This document shows positions 22,305-59,131 of a stretch of 64,000 bases of DNA, piece after piece. The stretch is from Burkholderia plantarii (GTDB lineage Bacteria; Pseudomonadota; Gammaproteobacteria; Burkholderiales; Burkholderiaceae): positions 310,001 to 374,000 of the forward strand of contig NZ_CP007212.1 of assembly GCF_001411805.1 (NCBI RefSeq), in the 5' to 3' direction. The notes beneath the pieces are model-generated. The model was not told the DNA's origin. It ran no database searches and saw nothing but the letters and a program-made list of their open reading frames with translations. The first letter of the stretch is position 1. Each line of letters begins with the position of its first letter. The position numbers were made by a program, and so were the translations under genes.

Positions 22305-23336
<1,032 letters not shown>

Positions 23337-23351
23337 TTACGGAACCCTTCG

Positions 23352-23379
23352 GTGAAATTTCGAGACAATGGTATATGAT
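23352..23379 (+). promoter_or_regulatory. Predicted promoter of the hemB-engB intergenic small RNA
   Basis: TATGAT (23374-23379) is a good -10 box. GTGAAA (23352-23357), 16 bases upstream, matches the -35 consensus at four of six positions. The predicted start is near 23386. Confidence 0.5.
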
Positions 23380-23385
23380 AGCGAT

Positions 23386-23491
23386 CGAGTGCCGCGCCAA
23401 GGCGCGATGCTCCCCGCTTCTCCTCCCTGAGCGGGTGCCTGTCGTTATTCGATTAGGCTGTTTGACCCGCCGCGAAACGGCGGGTTTTTTT
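23386..23491 (+). ncRNA. Candidate small regulatory RNA of about 106 bases with a C-rich loop
   Basis: A promoter-like pair upstream and a perfect terminator at the end define a short non-coding transcript between the minus-strand genes engB and hemB. The first stem is CGCGCC/GGCGCG. The second, CCCGCT/AGCGGG (23413-23418, 23430-23435), shows an 11-base loop TCTCCTCCCTG. The third is the terminator. The loop carries UCCUCC, the complement of a Shine-Dalgarno sequence, a pattern seen in several families of trans-acting sRNAs. I see no usable reading frame with a ribosome binding site. Targets and any known name are not determined. Confidence 0.55.
23466..23491 (+). terminator. Rho-independent terminator of the candidate small RNA
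   Basis: CCCGCCG (23466-23472), loop CGAAA, CGGCGGG (23478-23484) and seven T residues. It points along the plus strand, where no protein gene lies upstream for several kilobases, so it must serve a non-coding transcript. Confidence 0.85.
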
Positions 23492-23548
23492 ATGCGCCAA
23501 CCGACGGCAAGCCTCCGTTCGGGGCCGCGCGCGAGGCGCGCGGAACGG

Positions 23549-24208
23549 TCATTCTCCTACAGCTGCGTCATTTTCGCCGGCGGCCGACGGCCGCAGCCAA
23601 CCCTCGATCAGCGCGTGCGCTTCGTCGAGTCCGGTGCGCTTGAGTGCCGAGAACAACTGCACGGTTAGCTCACCCTCATAGCCGCCGTCGCGATAGGCCT
23701 CGAGCGCTTTCTTCGTATTGCGAAGCGCATTGACGCTCTCTTGGCGGGTCAATTTGTCGCACTTCGTCAGCAGCGTGTGAATCGGCTTGCCGGTCGGCGC
23801 GAACCACTCGATCATGCGCTGATCGAGTTCGGTCAGCGGCCGGCGCGAGTCCATCATCAGGATCATGCCGCGCAATTGGGGCCGGGTCTTGAGGTAGGCC
23901 GACAGCAGCGCTTCCCAGTGCGCCTTCGCAGCGCCGGGCACCTCGGCGTAGCCGTAGCCGGGCAGGTCGACGAGGTTCGCGACCGGTTCCGCCTCGGGGC
24001 CGACCGAGAAGTAGTTGATGTGCTGCGTGCGCCCCGGCGTCTTCGAGGCGAACGCGAGCCGCTTCTGATTGCAGAGGATGTTGATCGCCGTCGATTTGCC
24101 CGCGTTCGACCGGCCGGCGAAGGCGATCTCCGGAATCACGGTGGGCGGCAGGTCGCGCAGGTGATTGACGGTCGTGTAGAAGCGGGCTTGATGGAGCAGG
24201 AAGGCCAT
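23549..24208 (-). CDS. engB: Ribosome biogenesis GTP-binding protein EngB (YihA/YsxC)
   Basis: Protein of 219 residues, a small GTPase needed for 50S subunit assembly and normal septation. The P-loop GRSNAGKS is at residues 32-39, with DLPGYGYA as the switch II motif and TKCD as the base-recognition motif. It is divergent from the cytochrome c4 gene across a 252-base gap that contains a long palindrome. Confidence 0.96.
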
Positions 24209-58701: not shown

Positions 58702-58715
58702 GGCCGCCAGACGAA

Positions 58716-58830
58716 ACAGGGGTGCTTTGCTGCCTGTCGGCGTCCGGTGAACGATGCATCGGGATGCGCGGCGGCAAGGCTGAGAGAGTCCCTTCGCACC
58801 CGATCCGGGTAATACCGGCGCGGGAAGTTT
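58716..58830 (+). promoter_or_regulatory. TPP riboswitch (THI element)
   Basis: All conserved aptamer parts are in order: AGGGGTGC, then a long P3 arm (CTTTGCTGCC pairing with GGCGGCAAGG around an inner hairpin GATGCATC), CTGAGAGAGTCCC, CACCCGATC, CGGGTAATACCGG and CGCGGGAAG. Binding of thiamine pyrophosphate would lower expression of thiO-S-G-E downstream. The expression platform is not obvious; the ribosome binding site of thiO is about 300 bases away, so early termination seems more likely than direct site masking. Confidence 0.92.
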
Positions 58831-59131
58831 TCGATTCCACCGGGTCGCGCCCGCCGTTGTCGTTCGGCCGCCGTCGTTCGCATTGGAACGGGGCGCATGG
58901 CGTTGGCTTCCGGGTCGGCTCCCCGCCGCCGGTTTCGTCCGTTCGATTGCGCAGTCGCGCGTTACGGAAGGAGCCCATGCCCGTTATTCACGTCCCACCG
59001 CTTAGTTTCGTACCCCGGTTCGTTCGTCCCTCGGGTTGCGCTTGTCACGCCGGTTTCGCTCCGTGTGGCCGGACCCCGGCGCCGCGCGCGTTCGTCCGCG
59101 CGGCGGCACGCCTCGCCGGGAAGGCCGCGCG
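58831..59131 (+). other. Long untranslated leader between the TPP riboswitch and thiO
   Basis: About 300 bases without a convincing gene. Short in-frame ATGs exist (for example 58978, with GGAG upstream), but the encoded peptides have no recognisable family. The region may hold the riboswitch expression platform or a rho-dependent termination zone; no T-rich terminator is visible. Confidence 0.5.

Follow-up and report, generated by a model that had tools for sequence, protein, structure and literature searches.

The window, by which the whole analysed stretch of 64,000 nucleotides of Burkholderia plantarii DNA is meant, carries a plus-strand small RNA gene in the gap between hemB and engB, both of which lie on the minus strand, as the preliminary description of this DNA had stated. 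The features of the locus are as follows.

22305..23303, minus strand: hemB (HemB open reading frame), divergent neighbour on the promoter side of the RNA
23352..23357, plus strand: -35-like hexamer GTGAAA (sigma70-like pair scan)
23374..23379, plus strand: -10-like hexamer TATGAT, within GGTATATGATAGCGATCGAG (sigma70-like pair scan, same-genus copies)
23387..23491, plus strand: inferred 105-nt small RNA, RF02837 anti-hemB, ncS04 ortholog (Rfam, fold)
23387..23412, plus strand: 5' hairpin outside the Rfam model (fold), in the place of the gammaproteobacterial 5' helix (helix 1 of alignment A2)
23413..23435, plus strand: anti-Shine-Dalgarno hairpin, CCCGCU (23413-23418) with AGCGGG (23430-23435) (fold, compensatory changes in relatives)
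23419..23429, plus strand: 11-nt loop UCUCCUCCCUG (conserved CUCCCU in relatives)
23437..23458, plus strand: middle hairpin (fold), helix 2 of alignment A1
23464..23491, plus strand: intrinsic terminator with seven U (terminator scan, fold), helix 3 of alignment A1
23549..24208, minus strand: engB (EngB open reading frame), convergent neighbour on the terminator side of the RNA

The GTGAAA-16-TATGAT pair (23352-23379), already noticed in the preliminary description, was the only sigma70-like pair detected in the scan of 23000-23900 (shuffle mean 0.1), and the GGTATATGATAGCGATCGAG block that holds its -10 changes little among the same-genus copies compared. A terminator-like site is by itself unremarkable in the same interval (1 against a shuffle mean of 1.0); the one observed spans 23464-23486 with its seven T at 23485-23491, as had been reported, although nine base pairs rather than seven were counted in its stem. 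The segment 23387-23491, whose 5' end was placed from the published 105-nt length of the ortholog and the spacing to the -10, folds at -51.6 kcal/mol (z = -5.47, with 0 of 200 shuffles equally low) into three stem-loops plus the terminator, where two stem-loops had been described earlier. The CCCGCU/AGCGGG hairpin agrees with the earlier account, and its 11-nt loop UCUCCUCCCUG, the one C-rich loop in the fold, is a mimic of the anti-Shine-Dalgarno sequence and carries CCUCC. Elsewhere in the window, a TPP riboswitch (RF00059) was found at 58708-58843 on the plus strand (60.6 bits, cut-off 54.3).

Identity and published records

The Rfam model RF02837 (anti-hemB) matches 23411-23493 over its full length (1-81) with 83.2 bits against a cut-off of 49.5, and its E value of 4.4e-18 over the 64-kb window indicates that the RNA is more than chance; the position of the RNA in the engB-hemB gap, pointing away from hemB, is likewise that of this family. 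The score and the fold together support the earlier reading of a plus-strand small RNA. The window RNA is a real and already catalogued small RNA, the ortholog of ncS04 of B. cenocepacia, and no difference of substance from RF02837 and ncS04 was observed in sequence, fold, site or length. Passages of PMC5688073 place ncS04 of B. cenocepacia J2315 on the plus strand with 105 nt, the length that had been roughly estimated for the window RNA, and with an MFE of -52.7 and z = -5.5 (Table 1); they give its 3' end from RACE and dRNA-seq, anti-hemB as its alternative name, a Northern panel and binding to Hfq, and no significant change of its expression in the seven conditions tabulated (Table 2). Anti-hemB is also among the B. 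pseudomallei candidates that PMC3521395 tabulates as having Rfam homologs, and a passage of PMC6321483 describes Bc7 as an RNA that co-purifies with Hfq, is predicted to target hemB and has RybB as its homolog. Bc7 is probably the same RNA as anti-hemB/ncS04, since RF02837 is described in Rfam as 'Burkholderia RNA 7' and the hemB target is shared, yet the model passes its cut-off far outside Burkholderia. Given these records the window RNA is known, and the label 'unannotated' given to it earlier can hold at most for the genome annotation. The published passages on this RNA yielded no tested target for anti-hemB/ncS04. The breadth of the anti-hemB RNAs, their sigma-E-type promoter and their engB linkage were not found in the open-access literature, a search that most subscription journals lie outside; the new elements are this breadth, the sigma-E-type promoter in relatives and a likely kinship with ErsA and sX13.

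Spread, conservation and covariation

Of the genomes searched, 160 of 200 in the window's GTDB family, 190 of 300 in its GTDB order and 14 of 274 in the class pass the RF02837 cut-off, 12 of these 14 lying outside the window's order. At E <= 1e-3 the model matches 124 of the 274 class genomes, some of the weakest matches probably being chance. As a yardstick of chance the RsmY model was used, which matches 38 of the 274 class genomes at E <= 1e-3. Its two strongest matches both come from G651, the one genome that passes its cut-off; outside G651 the lowest E value is 1.4e-5, so that RF02837 class matches with E values of that size may be chance. Tandem arrays of anti-hemB-like RNA were observed in several lineages and represent local amplification, with four RF02837 matches in L170, five in L172 and two each in L143, L145, L152 and L173; in the L170 array a separate sigma-E-like promoter precedes every copy (scores 9 to 10). 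In one genome of the order (G427; loci L107, L108 and L109) four copies exceed the RF02837 cut-off, with about 0.1 kb between two of them and a distance of 13 kb to a third; its three scored copies show no sigma-E motif under a narrower rule with plain shuffles, and within 1 kb HemB is near one locus (L109) and EngB near none. A c-di-GMP-I riboswitch (77.9 bits) lies at 2037-2121 on the minus strand of L149, near an anti-hemB-like RNA.

Covariation was counted on two alignments hand-picked from the listings of matches, A1 with 77 order loci (19 from the window's own family) and A2 with 40 class loci, on structures assigned by hand from Rfam and the alignment columns, because the automatic RNAalifold consensus gave only part of the fold. 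Changes on both sides were observed in 17 of 22 pairs in A1 and 19 of 22 in A2, levels that 0 of 500 shuffles reach in either alignment. When the partner column was slid by one to three columns, most of the signal was gone in both alignments, and this control is the better one, since related sequences can beat shuffles without any structure. In A1, the middle hairpin (helix 2) shows both-side change in 7 of 8 pairs with 80.4% of cells paired, and the terminator (helix 3) in 8 of 8 pairs; the weakest helix of A2 is the middle one, with 66.9% of cells paired. The preliminary description had looked to covariation of the CCCGCU/AGCGGG stem around an invariant loop, and this expectation was borne out: the stem is nearly constant in the order (both-side change in 2 of 6 pairs, A1) and compensates in the class (4 of 5 pairs, A2). 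The loop itself is nearly invariant, with CUCCCU occurring in 70 of 71 loci of the family, in 59 of 60 of the order and in 38 of 40 of the class; CUCCCUGAG, a longer sequence, is present in 66 of 71, 58 of 60 and 24 of 40, respectively.

Gene neighbourhood and promoter type

The RNA was observed in the engB-hemB gap in the window's order and in the polA-engB gap in other orders. HemB and EngB both flank 67 of the 71 family loci, and one or both of them flank 70. Among the 60 order loci, 54 have HemB and/or EngB in the flanks (both in 40, EngB only in 10, HemB only in 4, neither in 6), and 35 of the 40 class loci have PolA and/or EngB (both in 20, PolA only in 9, EngB only in 6, neither in 5); the flanks scanned were 1 to 1.5 kb, so the absence of a neighbour is no proof. 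PolA lies upstream on the strand of the RNA in 26 of the 29 class loci showing PolA, and on the other side in three (L164, L174 and L175).

Promoters were scored against the motif GGAACTT-N15-18-TC[TA]NA (maximum score 11), which we take to be the consensus of RpoE-type sigma factors, with dinucleotide shuffles and the reverse complement as controls. Scores of 10 or more were reached in the order by 45 of 60 loci, against 16 of 3000 shuffles, in the class by 25 of 40, against 6 of 2000, and in the window's family by 12 of 71, against 6 of 3550; none of the reverse complements did so. In the majority of loci from other families the match precedes hairpin 1; at scores of 9 or more its -35 begins between -43 and -53 in order loci and between -49 and -65 in class loci. 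The sigma-E-type -35 of many relatives (GGAACTT, GAAACTT) lies at about the same upstream distance as GTGAAA of the window. Within the window's family a graded series was observed; it begins with GAAACTT-N16/17-TCATA in two genera (g11 and g20) and ends in the window's genus, in which the three copies shown score 7 or 8 and have TATATGATAG in place of the sigma-E motif. As a sigma-E type, the window promoter itself scores 8, which is chance level, and in this it lacks the promoter type of ErsA. From these patterns we infer which sigma factor the RNA gene uses in the different lineages.

In a separate scan of named genomes, which looked for the sigma-E -35 together with the loop and made no use of neighbours, at least 120 stretches were found, and the figures refer to the 80 loci listed. 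Among these, 76 are within 1.5 kb of engB, hemB or polA, the four misses being L229, L259, L283 (where the match is at the locus edge) and L300, and 47 also have a -10. The hosts of the loci listed include Aromatoleum, Azoarcus, Nitrosospira, Thiobacillus denitrificans, Zoogloea, Aquitalea and Thioalkalivibrio.

Relationship to ErsA and sX13 and mode of action

It is likely, on the balance of position, promoter and intermediate sequences taken together, that anti-hemB/ncS04, ErsA and sX13 represent one ancient engB-side RNA of the Gammaproteobacteria (in the GTDB sense, betaproteobacteria included) with an ancestral envelope-stress sigma promoter and an anti-Shine-Dalgarno loop; the sigma-E promoter would have been lost separately in Burkholderia and in the xanthomonads, with Spot 42 perhaps as the branch that diverged furthest. 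Rfam treats anti-hemB, ErsA and sX13 as three families and shows no clan for them. The model R1, which represents the gammaproteobacterial copies and was made solely from loci of other orders, matches the window at 23377-23493 with 54.7 bits (E 7.2e-13), a match that is not independent because the R1 loci were first found through RF02837; the models of ErsA (RF01719) and sX13 (RF02232), both with a cut-off of 50, gave no match at E <= 1 in 23250-23600. Among 30 Pseudomonadaceae-like engB loci, obtained from 39 genomes searched and examined for 900 nt beyond engB, a sigma-E-like pattern was found in 16, PolA in the flanks of 18 and an R1 match at E <= 1e-3 in 19. When 16 of the 30 were compared with Rfam, L184, L187, L191 and L210 exceeded the RF01719 (Pseudomon-1/ErsA) cut-off of 50, with L205 (49.4) and L199 (40.1) below it; the five R1-positive loci given to Rfam comprise four ErsA over the cut-off and one just under, and no RF01719 match was found in the 10 engB loci without an R1 match.

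ErsA lies beside engB and convergent to it, as the window RNA does, and shares with most relatives of the window RNA the sigma-E-type promoter, in addition to C-rich stretches and its detection by R1. The window copy is unlike ErsA in having hemB, not polA, upstream, a housekeeping-like promoter and no RF01719 match, and its anti-Shine-Dalgarno hairpin was not seen in the ErsA sequences compared. ErsA is strictly dependent on sigma22, according to a passage of PMC7565897, and represses algC by Hfq-dependent pairing with the ribosome-binding site, according to one of PMC6321483. The polA neighbourhood and detection by R1 are also shared by sX13, in whose hairpins C-rich loops act on G-rich motifs near translation starts, as a passage of PMC3771888 reports. 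It differs in its three C-rich loops and its reported independence of Hfq, the window copy having a single C-rich loop and no RF02232 match; inspection by eye showed three C-rich loops in many of the window RNA's relatives in the class. Spot 42 (RF00021) has in E. coli the comparable order polA > spf > < yihA (engB), but its R1 score is no more than 14.2 bits (E = 0.0016 over 2.5 kb) and it has no sigma-E motif (score 7). The founding ErsA paper is said to note the site common to ErsA and Spot 42. The open-access search, which leaves most subscription journals outside, returned no literature joining sX13 with ErsA, nor any on an RpoE-dependent small RNA in Betaproteobacteria or on an engB-hemB small RNA.

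An alternative is that independent small RNAs arose repeatedly in the polA/engB gap, with anti-hemB, ErsA and sX13 alike only in their C-rich loops and terminators. Where RNAs are rich in C and carry a terminator, base composition can produce weak model matches, and weak cross-matches were also obtained with ar14, RF02278, suhB and SorX. R1 gives 20.9-23.6 bits on RF02278 copies, equal to the weakest ErsA locus (22.7), and with the beta model (R2) two RF02278 copies (24.8-25.4) stand above ErsA and sX13 (14.3-20.5); the two sX13 loci show no sigma-E-like promoter (score 7), and the low R1 score of Spot 42 points the same way. Against this, R1 matches both ErsA and sX13 along its full length, in the right place and on the right strand, with 22.7-40.3 bits on the ErsA loci and 33.8 and 28.9 bits on both loci over the sX13 cut-off. 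In the 274 genomes the sX13 model gave 10 matches below its cut-off, of which 6 coincide with R1 sites, including two at loci of the R1 training set; copies of the four-copy array L170 match RF02837 (35.9-41.8 bits), RF02232 (48.3, cut-off 50), RF01719 (37.1) and ar14 (38.0), and the promoter type is common to ErsA. Repeated independent origin is accordingly considered unlikely. Matches of ar14 (RF02344) below its cut-off (30.2-40.5 bits) were observed on the same RNA in L155, L159 (= L220), L161, L162, L167, L170 (= L217) and L216, the last of which also matches Atu_C7 (RF02501) below the cut-off with 33.6 bits; these may represent an alphaproteobacterial relative or a shared C-rich design.

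For the window RNA itself, the explanation regarded as probable, with somewhat more confidence than the wider kinship, is that it represents the Burkholderia copy of the ancient engB-linked RNA, acting in trans by anti-Shine-Dalgarno pairing and with a decayed sigma-E promoter. It would be a free-standing transcript that ends at its own terminator and binds Hfq, as reported for the ortholog ncS04; its CU-rich loop imitates the 3' end of 16S rRNA and would most likely pair in trans with the G-rich ribosome-binding sites of several mRNAs, thereby blocking the initiation of translation. Most relatives outside the window's family have an envelope-stress sigma type of promoter (RpoE/AlgU), as ErsA does, and in Burkholderia this promoter would have decayed, with a housekeeping-like one in its place, so that the RNA would be constitutive. 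The regulation of mRNAs, put forward tentatively in the preliminary description, is a prediction from sequence. Only two AGGGAGGAG-N3-10-ATG sites were found in the 8.08-Mb genome, before open reading frames of 203 and 13 codons, and neither is convincing as a gene, so that any pairing would involve a shorter or an imperfect duplex.

The genome also holds four copies of the RF02278 double-hairpin 'toxic' small RNAs (such as ncS27 and bdhR1) over the cut-off (L005, L006, L007 and L008), all beginning with TGTCTCCTCC. These share with the window RNA the UCUCCUCC motif and a terminator and differ from it in layout; three weak RF02837 matches in the genome coincide with RF02278 copies and, given the R1 and R2 scores there too, are read as likeness of motif and terminator. 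Membership of the window RNA in RF02278 was rejected (16.7 bits against a cut-off of 50). This score also bears on the idea that the RNA serves as an anti-Shine-Dalgarno decoy resembling 16S rRNA, one that would reduce translation as a whole instead of controlling selected mRNAs; such a role would suit the CCUCC in the loop and the slowed growth on overexpression of the RF02278 member ncS27 (in a passage of PMC5688073). The growth effect of ncS27 is seen on some substrates and not others (in a passage of PMC10987360), and conservation extends beyond CCUCC to CUCCCUGAG, at the frequencies given above, though far less completely in the class; a global decoy is therefore regarded as highly improbable. 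More improbable still is a cis-antisense RNA regulating hemB, which the Rfam name, the predicted hemB target of Bc7 (in the passage of PMC6321483) and the divergent position next to hemB may suggest, and which was rejected on synteny and the lack of coding overlap, as 23387-23491 reaches neither the hemB nor the engB coding sequence (23303 and 23549), 10 of 60 order loci have EngB but no HemB in the flank, the upstream gene seen in class loci is polA (26 of the 29 showing PolA), and the hemB start region shows by eye no G-rich Shine-Dalgarno sequence matching the loop. The name 'anti-hemB' probably points to the wrong target.

As the window RNA is catalogued, its presence adds little. If it forms one family with ErsA and sX13, their known traits, namely the envelope-stress control of ErsA and the pairing of C-rich loops with G-rich start sites, would become testable predictions for many betaproteobacteria. 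The promoter change in Burkholderia, which fits the published non-response of ncS04 in the conditions tabulated in PMC5688073, would offer a compact example of how an RNA regulator can pass from stress control to constitutive use.
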